43,855 bases of DNA from Caproiciproducens sp. MSJ-32. GTDB taxonomy: Bacteria; Bacillota; Clostridia; Clostridiales; Clostridiaceae. The stretch spans positions 1 through 43,855 of the forward strand of contig NZ_JAHLPS010000024.1 of assembly GCF_018918055.1 (NCBI RefSeq), read 5' to 3'. Both the position numbers and the translations under genes were made by a program. The notes beneath the pieces were generated by a model that saw only the letters and a list, made by a program, of their open reading frames with translations, had not been told where the DNA came from and made no database searches. This document shows, piece after piece, positions 22,777 to 39,726 of this stretch. The stretch's first letter is position 1; every line of letters starts with the position of its first letter.

Positions 22777-22862
22777 GGGGGAGTTCCCGAGTGGTCAAAG
22801 GGGGCAGACTGTAAATCTGTTACGTTATCGTTTCGATGGTTCGAATCCGTCCTCCCCCACCA
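22777..22862 (+). tRNA. tRNA-Tyr (GTA), copy 1
   Basis: An 86-base type II tRNA with encoded CCA. The acceptor stem is GGGGGAG/CTCCCCC and the anticodon GTA is at 22811-22813. The long variable arm is typical of bacterial tRNA-Tyr. This copy differs from the other two by paired changes in the acceptor stem and a G-T pair in the T stem. Confidence 0.97.
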
Positions 22863-22885
22863 TAAAATTCATTATTAAATAATGT

Positions 22886-22960
22886 GCTGGCATGGCTCAA
22901 TGGTAGAGCAGCTGACTTGTAATCAGCAGGTTGTAGGTTCGAGTCCTATTGCCAGCTCCA
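22886..22960 (+). tRNA. tRNA-Thr (TGT), copy 1
   Basis: 75 bases including CCA; the acceptor stem is GCTGGCA/TGCCAGC and anticodon TGT is at 22918-22920. It is identical to the copy at 23158. Confidence 0.97.
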
Positions 22961-22965
22961 CATAT

Positions 22966-23051
22966 GGAGGAGTTCCCGAGTGGCCAAAGGGGGCAGACTG
23001 TAAATCTGTTACGTTATCGTTTCGATGGTTCGAATCCATCCTCCTCCACCA
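22966..23051 (+). tRNA. tRNA-Tyr (GTA), copy 2
   Basis: 86 bases including CCA; the acceptor stem is GGAGGAG/CTCCTCC and anticodon GTA is at 23000-23002. It is identical to copy 3. Confidence 0.97.
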
Positions 23052-23065
23052 ATTTATTTTGTTTT

Positions 23066-23141
23066 GGAAGCATAGCTCAGCTGGGAGAGCACCTGCCTTA
23101 CAAGCAGGGGGTCACAGGTTCGATCCCTGTTGCTTCCACCA
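23066..23141 (+). tRNA. tRNA-Val (TAC)
   Basis: 76 bases including CCA; the acceptor stem is GGAAGCA/TGCTTCC and anticodon TAC is at 23099-23101. Confidence 0.97.
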
Positions 23142-23157
23142 CTTAATTAAATAATGT

Positions 23158-23232
23158 GCTGGCATGGCTCAATGGTAGAGCAGCTGACTTGTAATCAGCA
23201 GGTTGTAGGTTCGAGTCCTATTGCCAGCTCCA
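23158..23232 (+). tRNA. tRNA-Thr (TGT), copy 2
   Basis: Identical to the tRNA-Thr at 22886-22960, with anticodon TGT at 23190-23192. It is part of the duplicated unit. Confidence 0.97.
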
Positions 23233-23237
23233 TATAT

Positions 23238-23323
23238 GGAGGAGTTCCCGAGTGGCCAAAGGGGGCAGACTGTAAATCTGTTACGTTATCGTTTCGATGG
23301 TTCGAATCCATCCTCCTCCACCA
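23238..23323 (+). tRNA. tRNA-Tyr (GTA), copy 3
   Basis: Identical to tRNA-Tyr copy 2, with anticodon GTA at 23272-23274. It is the last tRNA before the terminator. Confidence 0.97.
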
Positions 23324-23408: not shown

Positions 23409-23513
23409 TTCTTATCAAGAGAGGTGGAGGGAAAAGGGCCCTGTGAAACCCGGCAACCTGCTTTATTAGAAAGCGTGGTGCCAATTCCTGCAATTAATTT
23501 TGCAAGATAAGAA
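23409..23513 (+). promoter_or_regulatory. SAM-I (S-box) riboswitch
   Basis: The S-box core is clear: AGAGAGGTGGAGGGA, GGCCCTGTGAAACCCGGCAA and GTGGTGCCAATTCC. The closing P1 stem is TTCTTATC (23409-23416) with GATAAGAA (23506-23513). It binds S-adenosylmethionine and controls metK, encoding the SAM-synthesising enzyme, by transcription termination at 23529-23560. Confidence 0.97.
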
Positions 23514-28429: not shown

Positions 28430-29446
28430 TTGAATAATAGATTGATACGTATTGAAGAGTTAAATAAATATAATTACTTGCTAAATAAATGGTATAGGGG
28501 TAAAAGAAAATTATTAACTATTATAACTAGTCCCTATAACTCTCCATTGATATATAAAGAATTAATTTTCTTTTTATTAAAAGAAAATAAGCGAATTTTA
28601 TATGTATGGGATTCTGAAGAAATTAATAAGGAATTAGTATCTTCATTAAAAACTAATATAAAATTCACATATTCTTACATATCAATTGAAGAAGTAAATA
28701 GCCAGTTAAATTTTATAAATTTTAAGAATTTGAATAAAATAAAGCATCAATATGATTTTTGTATTATTGATGATGTAAGTTTATTTTCAAAGTTAACTAA
28801 ATCAAATATAAGAGAGGCTATCGAGCATTTATACTTATTTTGTAAGAAAATAAGCATATACTCAATTGAAAAAGTAATAAACAGTGGTGAAGTAATTTAT
28901 ATATCTGATTTAAGAAGAAATAGTCCTTTTATAGAACCTAGAATAATGAATACTAAAGTTAATTTAGAAGAAGAAGTCCCATATAAATTATATGATTATT
29001 TATTTTGGTTTAAACAAAATAAGAGTAAGGTAATTATTTTTGCCCCATATGAAGATAATGTGAATAAAATATATGAAAATTATACAGAATTATTAAAGGC
29101 TAAAGATACTAAAATAATAAAATTCTTAAAAAATGACGATAATAAAAAAATTGATGCTTTATATAAAGAAAAAAATAAAGCTATTTTTGTGATTACAAAT
29201 AATTTTAAAAGTTACTCAGATTTAAAGGGAATAAATATTAATATTATAGTTTTAATGTGTGATTATTCTATTTTTACTTATAAAAAATTAGTTTTTTTAT
29301 GTGCAGAAGCAGGTAAAAACAGTAATAAATCTTTGGGAGAAATAATTTTAGTATCAAAAACACTTACAGAAGATATGGAATTGGCTAAAAATATTACAAG
29401 GAATTATAATAAAGAAATATGGGAAAAGGGATTATTAAAATATTAA
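28430..29446 (+). CDS. Degenerate ComFA-like protein (pseudo-helicase)
   Basis: A 338-residue protein directly upstream of, and overlapping, comFC, the place normally held by the competence helicase ComFA. Its outline follows ComFA: a Walker A-like region at about 30-42 (TIITSPYNSP, where ComFA has TGxGKT), a Walker B-like CIIDDV with D114-D115 (ComFA: DEVDAF), a second RecA-like domain starting VIIFAPYEDN, and a tail with LGEIILVSKT. The nucleotide-binding Lys and the motif VI arginines (QIAGRVGR, here approximately LCAEAGKNS) are missing, and there is no N-terminal zinc finger. It probably lacks ATPase activity. The start is TTG at 28430 behind GAGAGG. ComFA homology is inferred from position and pattern, not from a search. 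Confidence 0.65.
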   Translation: MNNRLIRIEELNKYNYLLNKWYRGKRKLLTIITSPYNSPLIYKELIFFLLKENKRILYVWDSEEINKELVSSLKTNIKFTYSYISIEEVNSQLNFINFKNLNKIKHQYDFCIIDDVSLFSKLTKSNIREAIEHLYLFCKKISIYSIEKVINSGEVIYISDLRRNSPFIEPRIMNTKVNLEEEVPYKLYDYLFWFKQNKSKVIIFAPYEDNVNKIYENYTELLKAKDTKIIKFLKNDDNKKIDALYKEKNKAIFVITNNFKSYSDLKGININIIVLMCDYSIFTYKKLVFLCAEAGKNSNKSLGEIILVSKTLTEDMELAKNITRNYNKEIWEKGLLKY

Positions 29447-30063
29447 AAACAATAATAAATGAATTATTATATATAATTTATCCTCCAGATAATAAATGCA
29501 TAGTATGTGGTGAAGAATATATAGGGGTATGTCCTTTATGCTTAAGTAAAATACAAAGGGTTAAGGAGAATTCAGAAATATATTCTTATGCATATTATAG
29601 CGGAGTTATAAAAGAAATAATATTAAAATTTAAATATAAAAAAGTTTTTTTAGCTGGAAATATTTTAGCAGATTTTTTATATGAACTAATTCAGGAAAAT
29701 AAAATAGAAGCTGATGGTATATTATATGTTCCTTGCAGTAAAGAAACTTTGAGAAGAAGAGGTTTTAATCAATGTGAAATAATGGCGAGAATATTGGGGG
29801 AAAAATTAGATATACCAGTTTATAATGACCTAATAAAAATAAAAAATACAAAGGAACAGAAAATTTTATCAAGGGAAGAAAGATTCATAAATATAAAAAA
29901 TGCCTTTAAATTAAAAAATACCAATAATGTAAAAGATAAAAGAATAATTCTTATAGATGATGTAATTACAACTGGTGCCACTTTATTAGAATGCGAAAAA
30001 ATTTTAAAAGAAAACGGAGTCAAAGAAATAAAAATATTGACAGTTGCTAAAAGTTATATATAA
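29419..30063 (+). CDS. comFC: ComFC-family phosphoribosyltransferase-like protein
   Basis: ComFC is a cytosolic protein needed for handling incoming DNA in natural transformation; related proteins also occur in non-competent bacteria. The 214 residues have an N-terminal zinc ribbon (Cys27, Cys30, Cys38, Cys41) and a type I phosphoribosyltransferase fold with the PRPP motif IILIDDVITTGATL. PCSKETLRRRGFNQCEIMA is the other family signature. It overlaps the ComFA-like gene by 28 bases, with only a weak ribosome binding site, so translation is probably coupled. The 3' end of the gene carries the promoter of the downstream RNA gene. Confidence 0.93.
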   Translation: MGKGIIKILKTIINELLYIIYPPDNKCIVCGEEYIGVCPLCLSKIQRVKENSEIYSYAYYSGVIKEIILKFKYKKVFLAGNILADFLYELIQENKIEADGILYVPCSKETLRRRGFNQCEIMARILGEKLDIPVYNDLIKIKNTKEQKILSREERFINIKNAFKLKNTNNVKDKRIILIDDVITTGATLLECEKILKENGVKEIKILTVAKSYI

Positions 30064-30064
30064 T
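30037..30064 (+). promoter_or_regulatory. Consensus sigma-A promoter of the raiA-motif RNA
   Basis: TTGACA (30037-30042) and TATAAT (30059-30064) match both consensus hexamers, with a 16-base spacer. The -35 lies inside comFC and the -10 overlaps its stop codon. The expected transcription start, about seven bases downstream, is the first base of the RNA's closing stem at 30071. Confidence 0.85.
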
Positions 30065-30070
30065 AATAAT

Positions 30071-30276
30071 GTAAAGTTAGGTTTGTGGATGAAAGTCGAT
30101 GCTAGTCGCAGGCAAAACGATCCACGTAAGTTAGGAAAAATTCCTAATGAGCATGGTGCGGTATAGAAGTAAGTCCTACCAAGAAATTGAGAGGGTTAGT
30201 AGTGAGGGGGTAATTCCTAGTAGCAAAAGCTCCAGTAGGCGAGTGTGGGGGCAAAATCCAGGTCAAATAACTTTAC
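30071..30276 (+). ncRNA. raiA RNA: raiA-motif structured RNA
   Basis: About 206 nt of non-coding, comparatively GC-rich sequence between comFC and hpf. It is closed by a perfect 9-bp stem, GTAAAGTTA (30071-30079) with TAACTTTAC (30268-30276). Internal stems include GTGGAT/ATCCAC (30085-30090 with 30120-30125) and TTAGGAA/TTCCTAA (30131-30137 with 30141-30147). Size, structure and its place before the ribosome-hibernation gene (raiA/hpf) match the raiA motif reported in Firmicutes and Actinobacteria. It has its own consensus promoter and terminator, so it is probably an abundant free RNA, not a leader. Its molecular role is not settled to my knowledge. The alternative of a group II intron piece was rejected. 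Confidence 0.85.
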
Positions 30277-30280
30277 AAGA

Positions 30281-30318
30281 AAATCTCCATCAGTATTATT
30301 ACTGATGGAGATTTTTTT
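30281..30318 (+). terminator. Rho-independent terminator of the raiA-motif RNA
   Basis: A perfect 14-bp stem (AATCTCCATCAGTA with TACTGATGGAGATT, TTAT loop) is followed by a T run, five bases after the closing stem of the RNA. Confidence 0.95.
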
Positions 30319-30401
30319 GCGAAAAACAGTAAAATATAAAGAAAAAGTAAGTTATGTTAAGCAAAATAGAGAGAATTTTCTGTTAATTCAGAAAATAAAT
30401 A

Positions 30402-30430
30402 TTGTTAAAGGCTATCAAGGGAAGTATAAT
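30402..30430 (+). promoter_or_regulatory. Sigma-A promoter of hpf
   Basis: TTGTTA (30402-30407) and TATAAT (30425-30430) have a 17-base spacer, about 70 bases before the hpf start. It shows hpf is transcribed separately from the upstream RNA. Confidence 0.65.
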
Positions 30431-30498
30431 ATAAGTAACAAATATTAAATTTAAAAATTTAAATTTAATATTTAAATTACAGGAGAGGGGCGACCTAT

Positions 30499-39482: not shown

Positions 39483-39554
39483 ATGGTTAAAAATTTTGCT
39501 TGTCAAAATAATAACTATAGCATATAATATAAGAGTAATAAAAATAAATAACAT

Positions 39555-39666
39555 TATCTTCAGGGCGGGGCGTAATTCCCCACCGGCGGTATAGCCCGCG
39601 AGCTAGTTTATAGCACGATTCGGTGAAACTCCGAAGCCGACAGTATAGTCTGGATGAAAGAAGGTA
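39555..39666 (+). promoter_or_regulatory. FMN (RFN) riboswitch
   Basis: The RFN element is unmistakable: TCTTCAGGGCGGGG, ATTCCCCACCGGCGGT, AGCCCGCGAGC, GATTCGGTGAAACTCCGA, GCCGACAGTATAGTCTGGATG. The P1 stem is TATCTT (39555-39560) with AAGGTA (39661-39666). It senses FMN and controls the downstream riboflavin transporter. Between tex and ribU (39483-39850) this element and its terminator are the main content. Confidence 0.97.
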
Positions 39667-39726
39667 TATGTGGTGAGATAGCTTAATTTAATTATTAATG
39701 CATCTTTCTTTTTGCATGTATGAAGC

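Follow-up and report, generated by a model that had tools for sequence, protein, structure and literature searches.

The raiA (ModT) RNA ahead of hpf in Caproiciproducens sp. MSJ-32 is probably a free RNA with its own predicted promoter in the end of comFC

Within a 43,855-nucleotide (nt) stretch of the genome of Caproiciproducens sp. MSJ-32 (contig NZ_JAHLPS010000024.1, positions 1 to 43,855, forward strand; hereafter, the window), a structured raiA RNA lies between comFC and hpf, the gene of the long hibernation-promoting factor. Does this RNA control hpf in cis, or is it a gene of its own? Like riboswitches, raiA RNAs are compact, highly conserved and often located ahead of a gene. ModT, the raiA RNA of Clostridioides difficile, has been described as an abundant trans-acting RNA affecting the growth transition, sporulation and cyclic di-GMP (c-di-GMP) (PMC11706538), and a review also argues that raiA is no riboswitch (PMC11477304). 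Our analysis makes it very probable that the MSJ-32 locus is a noncoding raiA (ModT) gene with its own promoter, and that its product, a free RNA some 246 nt long, acts in trans and does not control hpf in cis. The locus offers a clean gene model for an RNA reported among the most abundant in some Clostridia, and argues that its Rfam riboswitch label is misleading.

The identity of the RNA was determined with the Rfam covariance model RF03072 (raiA), which matched positions 30072–30275 of the plus strand with 190.4 bits (E 7.4e-49; cmscan) over model positions 1–209 of 209. The score exceeds the gathering score of 101.3 bits and places the RNA in the family, and the match is unique within the 2.5-Mb assembly. 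The preliminary description of this DNA had named the RNA from its position, size and structure; the name now has a direct, full-length match behind it, and the refutation set out there, which called for no such match, does not apply. Outside the model match, an extra G-C pair (30071–30276) completes a perfect 9-bp closing stem, P1. In the alignment of the genus loci (64 sequences, 63 distinct), 85.7% of cells are standard-paired over 56 pairs, a figure flattered because the pairs are the projection of the Rfam alignment of the window onto the genus sequences, so that the structure was in part derived from the window itself. Pairing falls to 31–46% when the 3' partners are slid by 1–3 columns, and two-sided changes were found at 18 pairs, compared with 4–11 after sliding. 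Firmer structural evidence than the percentage is provided by the two-sided changes in P1 (A-T or T-A at 30073–30274; C-G, T-A or A-T at 30077–30270). The alignment as a whole reveals a conserved paired architecture with covariation.

Some pairs drawn by Rfam do not hold: 30104–30163 is A-A in 60 of 63 sequences, 30125–30152 is C-C in all 63, 30126–30151 also fails as drawn, and the P5 hairpin has a different register, with 30131–30137 pairing with 30141–30147 in the window. The fold of the Clostridium acetobutylicum raiA RNA has been solved at about 3 Å and contains two pseudoknots (PMC11751092; also resolved in PMC12286853). The long-range helix 30105–30110/30157–30162 is most likely pk-1 of that fold (PMC11751092); six of its seven pairs are present and invariant in the genus, hence covariation gives no signal for or against it. 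Comparison with the papers also supplied the names P6–P8, which we infer for the domain 30175–30239. Weak Rfam matches near or over the terminator were all below gathering and were rejected.

Upstream of P1, the hexamers TTGACA and TATAAT with a 16-nt spacer (30037–30064) match the sigma-A-type consensus at 12 of 12 positions. The predicted start, 30071, is both the seventh base after the -10 hexamer and the first base of P1 (30071–30079/30268–30276), and both elements had been correctly recognised in the preliminary description. The string TTGACN-16-TATAAT occurs only once on the two strands of the window (mean of 0.12 in mononucleotide shuffles) and is present at raiA in all 64 genus loci, with TTGACA in 28, TTGACC in 20, TTGACT in 14 and TTGACG in two. 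The distance from the -10 hexamer to the first model position is 7 nt in 55 of them and 4, 6, 8 or 9 nt in the rest. When the score was restricted by position, all 64 loci reached at least 11/12, versus 0.09% of shuffles. Outside the genus, at least 11/12 was reached in 27 and at least 10/12 in 38 of 59 loci (0.14% and 1.7% of shuffles, respectively), these being the 61 loci of the class sample less two with too little upstream sequence. Judged from these scores, every locus of the genus sample appears to have a promoter at P1, and outside the genus such promoters are common but weaker.

As had also been noticed earlier, this promoter is buried in the end of comFC, the -10 hexamer covering the stop codon. 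The comFC product carries a phosphoribosyltransferase domain (PF00156, above cut-off); its match to TIGR00201 (ComF) has an E value of 2e-36, yet the score of 126 bits is below the model cut-off of 234. In 62 of the 64 genus loci, comFC reads the -35 hexamer in frame as Leu-Thr (TTG ACN), and the -10 hexamer starts two bases ahead of the comFC stop and encloses it; the same arrangement was found in seven of eight raiA-bearing loci of the family outside the genus. Since a conserved protein sequence alone could create the promoter string, codon choice was tested. The -35 Leu codon is TTG in 62/62 overlapping loci, while TTG accounts for 30/347 codons in six other comFC columns with Leu conserved to at least 90% and for 28/304 Leu codons in eight window genes; the 62 loci were selected by -10 placement, not by the Leu codon, and are related, so they are not 62 independent events. 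The last Ile codon of comFC is ATA in 61/61, and the third base of the Thr codon, position 6 of the -35 hexamer, is free (27 ACA, 20 ACC, 14 ACT and 1 ACG). This codon choice points to selection on the promoter itself.

Six relatives have no raiA, with the comFC–hpf order kept: two in the genus (G011 and G034) and four other family members (G099, G144, G182 and G213). The best 16-spacer string at their comFC end scores, out of 12, 9 in G011, 7 in G034, 10 in G182, 11 in G144, 10 in G099 and 8 in G213. TTG is present in one of the six (G099) and TTGAC plus TATAAT in none; the former promoter place reads GTGACT-16-TATAAG in G011 and TTAACA-16-TATAAT in G144.

A search of a named contig collection with a promoter-plus-raiA-core pattern revealed at least 116 loci, many from genomes shared with the genus sample. 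Of the matches listed, 115 have enough flank, and the upstream frame closes with a ComFC-like LTxxKSxx stop in 102 of them; L216, L224 and L242 have clear variants of this ending. The tally tests the reading frame and not the promoter, which the pattern itself demands. Matches in Psychroflexus, Prevotella, Sulfurovaceae and Saprospiraceae, none of the four with a raiA match, were rejected as chance, as were the uncultured Clostridia loci L170 and L194. In a Paludibacteraceae match (L250), the upstream frame is not open. No mention of the overlap was found in the portions available to us of two papers on the raiA motif, and novelty is not claimed. The sharing of bases by promoter and gene end offers a simple reason for the comFC–raiA synteny in the Clostridium group; elsewhere, comFC, where found, ends further upstream, so the overlap does not explain the synteny there.

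On the 3' side, a perfect hairpin with a stem of 17 pairs in one fold and 19 in another (minimum free energy, MFE, -23.8; 100 mononucleotide shuffles give a z of about -10) is predicted to be an intrinsic terminator. It had been placed five bases after the stem; the terminator itself is upheld, and the gap is within 4 nt. A simple terminator scanner reported none at the raiA 3' end; the likely reason is that the T run is taken up into the stem. With the terminator hairpin included, the primary transcript is predicted to be about 246 nt long, so the length of about 206 nt proposed earlier stands for the folded core and not for the primary transcript.

The genus loci differ in this respect: 30 have an adjacent terminator (10 nt or less from P1), 24 a more distant one and ten none. 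Altogether, 54 of 64 loci have a terminator with P of 0.05 or less that starts no further than 90 nt away; a few of these may be chance, P being based on 60 mononucleotide shuffles per locus. The sequence after P1 contains 1.7 T per 10 nt in the adjacent group (own background 3.9) and 5.0 in the other 34 loci, a modest excess over their background of 4.0 (paired P 0.016). The difference between the groups is significant (P 2e-7) but is in part built in, since hairpin position served to define the groups and an adjacent hairpin brings its own A-rich arm. These data suggest that congeners without an adjacent hairpin may terminate a short form at P1 itself. Two forms of ModT, of 215 and 260 nt, are reported in C. 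difficile, the longer of which C. acetobutylicum is said to lack (PMC11706538). The MSJ-32 gene resembles RF03072/ModT in its full-length match, single match in the genome, sigma-A-type 5' promoter, comFC before and hpf after it, and in that no expression platform was found. Unlike C. difficile ModT, it joins P1 to its terminator by an A-rich linker, the terminator starting no more than 4 nt away, so that the form of about 246 nt is expected to be the primary one, and its -10 hexamer lies on the comFC stop codon, whereas the C. difficile start is intergenic (PMC11706538).

The hpf product matches both S30AE-type models, PF02482 and PF16321, and the HPF/YfiA model TIGR00741 above their cut-offs. 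A promoter of its own, about 80 bases after the terminator, had been proposed for this gene; the predicted promoter starts 83 nt past the raiA terminator and is weak on its own, the region containing 28 promoter-like sites versus 17.9 in shuffles. It is backed by a genus-conserved CodY-like box located 12 nt ahead of it. Such a box, with no more than two mismatches, is present in 52 of 63 genus raiA–hpf gaps (1.2% of shuffles), and a promoter-like pair scoring at least 10/12 starts 9–16 nt behind it in 16 of the 52 (0.5% of shuffles). CodY is encoded in the MSJ-32 assembly. In Staphylococcus aureus, the CodY box of hpf lies 15 nt ahead of a putative sigma-A -35 hexamer (PMC6256015), and our data suggest that ribosome hibernation may be under nutrient control in Clostridium, as reported for S. 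aureus. At the level of sequence, the terminator, the separate predicted hpf promoter and the CodY-like box argue against co-transcription of raiA and hpf; with hpf having a control region of its own, raiA reads as a free RNA and not as its leader.

The earlier view of raiA as a free RNA is thus supported, at the level of sequence, by the genus-conserved promoter, the terminators and the separate hpf control region. In the proposed model, RNA polymerase with the housekeeping sigma factor would start at about 30071 from the consensus promoter embedded in the comFC end, the first nine bases of the transcript would pair with 30268–30276, and transcription would stop at the adjacent hairpin, releasing the free RNA. 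Its action would be in trans, and its most likely form is a compact RNA by itself or in complex with a protein; it would be abundant in growing cells and time the exit from growth, the effects on sporulation and c-di-GMP would be downstream outputs, and hpf would not be regulated in cis. Family membership, the conserved promoter and terminator and the hpf control region come from the sequence studied here; the transcript ends, any protein partner and the molecular target are what we infer. Like 6S RNA and other housekeeping RNAs, raiA would be free and bounded by a promoter and a terminator, and ModT is reported to be abundant in C. difficile; kinship with these RNAs was judged from the Rfam scan, and nothing in the present data points to RNA polymerase binding.

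Several points weigh against this model. The transcript start, end and abundance are predictions for MSJ-32. The counts outside the genus imply that not every raiA has a strong promoter directly at P1, and in ten of the 64 genus loci no significant terminator hairpin was found within 90 nt. The 11/12 string in the raiA-less G144, like the 10/12 strings of two more such relatives, indicates that ComFC coding alone, or a relic, can nearly build the promoter. Finally, Rfam types the family as a cis-regulatory riboswitch.

A wider reading, offered tentatively, casts raiA as a housekeeping RNA machine of general use, its point of action being a core growth process common to bacteria that sporulate or do not, and that have c-di-GMP or do not. 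In Clostridium, the sharing of bases between promoter and comFC coding end would lock the raiA gene physically to comFC; raiA would then also form the end of comFC mRNAs, so that the RNA has two origins. In congeners without an adjacent hairpin, P1 and the U-rich stretch after it may themselves terminate transcription.

Concerning function, the preliminary description did not take the molecular role of raiA as established. This is no longer wholly so, since ModT is reported to be needed for timely growth exit and for sporulation (PMC11706538). In C. difficile, ModT is among the 30 most abundant transcripts and has a sigma-A promoter and a single transcription start site; it is complemented in trans, C. 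acetobutylicum agreeing according to the same authors, and orthologues replace it partly or fully (PMC11706538). Given the sporulation phenotype in C. difficile, raiA could be thought to work chiefly by setting c-di-GMP, and the MSJ-32 assembly does contain Spo0A and eight GGDEF matches. However, among 293 genomes sampled from the class, of which 67 have raiA (negatives rest on Infernal's stricter filters), Spo0A_C (E 0.001) was detected in 48/67 raiA-bearing and 190/226 raiA-less genomes, and GGDEF (E 1e-10) in 55/67 and 171/226, respectively. When the misses among the raiA-bearing genomes were searched again at E 0.01, 19 were still without Spo0A, 12 without GGDEF and eight, from four families, without both (G164, G183, G198, G214, G226, G245, G286 and G323); the genomes cannot be counted as independent, since one genus supplies five of the eight, a protein may be present although its profile finds no match, and the assignments per genome were tallied by hand. 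Besides, the rise in toxin in C. difficile was only partly reversed by removal of dccA (PMC11706538). We therefore consider it unlikely that raiA acts chiefly through c-di-GMP. Neither c-di-GMP nor sporulation looks like a universal target, and since raiA is retained in genomes that have neither output, the two are better seen as downstream effects in some species. The absence of two known outputs from some raiA-bearing genomes narrows what to look for, and raiA is probably a general RNA or ribonucleoprotein sensing or acting on growth state.

Less probable still is that raiA is mainly a processed 3' untranslated region of the comFC operon mRNA, with its own promoter secondary. P1 begins 8 nt past the last base of the comFC stop, a gap with no room for a terminator, so that comFC transcripts must enter raiA. 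This explanation is opposed by the near-perfect promoter with its codon choice, by the two genus loci (L007 and L074) that have no comFC overlap and still keep the promoter and the 16-nt spacer, and by the single transcription start site in C. difficile (PMC11706538).

A cis-acting riboswitch or leader that switches hpf through the terminator 30279–30318 would agree with the Rfam type and with raiA preceding hpf in 63 of 64 genus loci, but it is highly improbable, since no expression platform exclusive with an aptamer was recognised (the longest complements of the terminator arms in the RNA body, 7 and 8 nt, are no more than expected from shuffles, P 0.62 and 0.71), the terminator varies in sequence, distance and even presence among congeners, hpf has its own predicted promoter and a CodY-like box that is kept within two mismatches in three of the six raiA-less relatives (G011 1, G182 1 and G144 2) and is weaker in the others (G099 3, G213 3 and G034 4), and ModT is complemented in trans.

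Table 1. Features of the comFC–raiA–hpf region, in window coordinates.
Feature	Position	Strand	Basis
comFC, 214 aa; last codons contain the raiA promoter	29419..30063	+	Open reading frame (ORF) list; PF00156; TIGR00201; congener tails
-35 hexamer TTGACA, read in frame by comFC as Leu-Thr	30037..30042	+	Sequence
-10 hexamer TATAAT; 30061–30063 is the comFC stop codon TAA	30059..30064	+	Sequence
raiA (ModT) structured RNA core, 206 nt	30071..30276	+	cmscan RF03072; outermost pair 30071–30276 from sequence
P1 closing stem, 5' strand, pairs with 30268–30276	30071..30079	+	Sequence; two-sided changes in genus alignment
Strand of long-range helix drawn nested by Rfam, pairs with 30157–30162	30105..30110	+	cmscan alignment
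Hairpin UUAGGAA-AAA-UUCCUAA (P5 region)	30131..30147	+	Sequence; MFE fold
Partner strand of probable pk-1 helix	30157..30162	+	cmscan alignment
Domain closed by 30175–30179/30235–30239, with variable arm (probable P6–P8 region)	30175..30239	+	cmscan, alignment
P1 closing stem, 3' strand	30268..30276	+	Pairs with 30071–30079; genus alignment
Predicted intrinsic terminator, 17-bp stem 30279–30295/30300–30316, T run 30312–30318	30279..30318	+	Sequence, folds
CodY-like box AATTTTCTGTTAATT, 2 mismatches, upstream of hpf promoter	30375..30389	+	Consensus as in PMC6256015
Predicted hpf promoter TTGTTA-17-TATAAT, 10/12	30402..30430	+	Promoter scan
hpf, long hibernation-promoting factor, 178 aa	30499..31035	+	ORF list; PF02482, PF16321, TIGR00741

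The distribution of raiA is broad within the genus, where it was found in 64 of 68 genomes. In the comFC–hpf gap of the six raiA-less relatives (L129–L134), no divergent raiA was found at E values up to 1. The two remaining misses in the genus look like assembly gaps: in G047 the contig ends interrupt the region, leaving 60 nt, and G058, 86% complete, is also without hpf. The raiA-less G011 and G034 retain Spo0A and GGDEF proteins, and such congeners, with the neighbouring genes intact, represent natural knockouts. Among 50,697 phage records there was no raiA match, one exact conserved pattern searched in viral contigs gave none, and the only 'plasmid' match, a 2.6-Mb Acetoanaerobium record, is chromosome-sized and was rejected as plasmid carriage. 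The comFC overlap, the split in terminator types and the limits on co-occurrence are modest additions to a known, partly characterised RNA family.

The RNA also varies in size. Short raiA RNAs of 164–178 nt, compared with about 205 nt, occur in one family of the class sample (f2; L122–L127); in the four that were aligned (L122, L123, L125 and L126), most of the arm 30193–30232 is missing and the core is kept, making them a natural minimal version. Long RNAs, of 276 and 339–348 nt, occur in L091, L093 and L114–L118, and in the aligned L091 and L116 an extra stretch of 72 or 135 nt lies in one hairpin loop, at the place that corresponds to window positions 30183–30186. A 67-aa ORF (30245–30448) was taken as mechanical.

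Elsewhere in the window, cmscan detected six tRNA genes at 22777–23320 with recurring scores (75.2 twice; 54.4 twice and 54.3), which suggest a duplicated tRNA cassette, a SAM riboswitch at 23409–23513 (86 bits) and an FMN riboswitch at 39552–39669 (115 bits).
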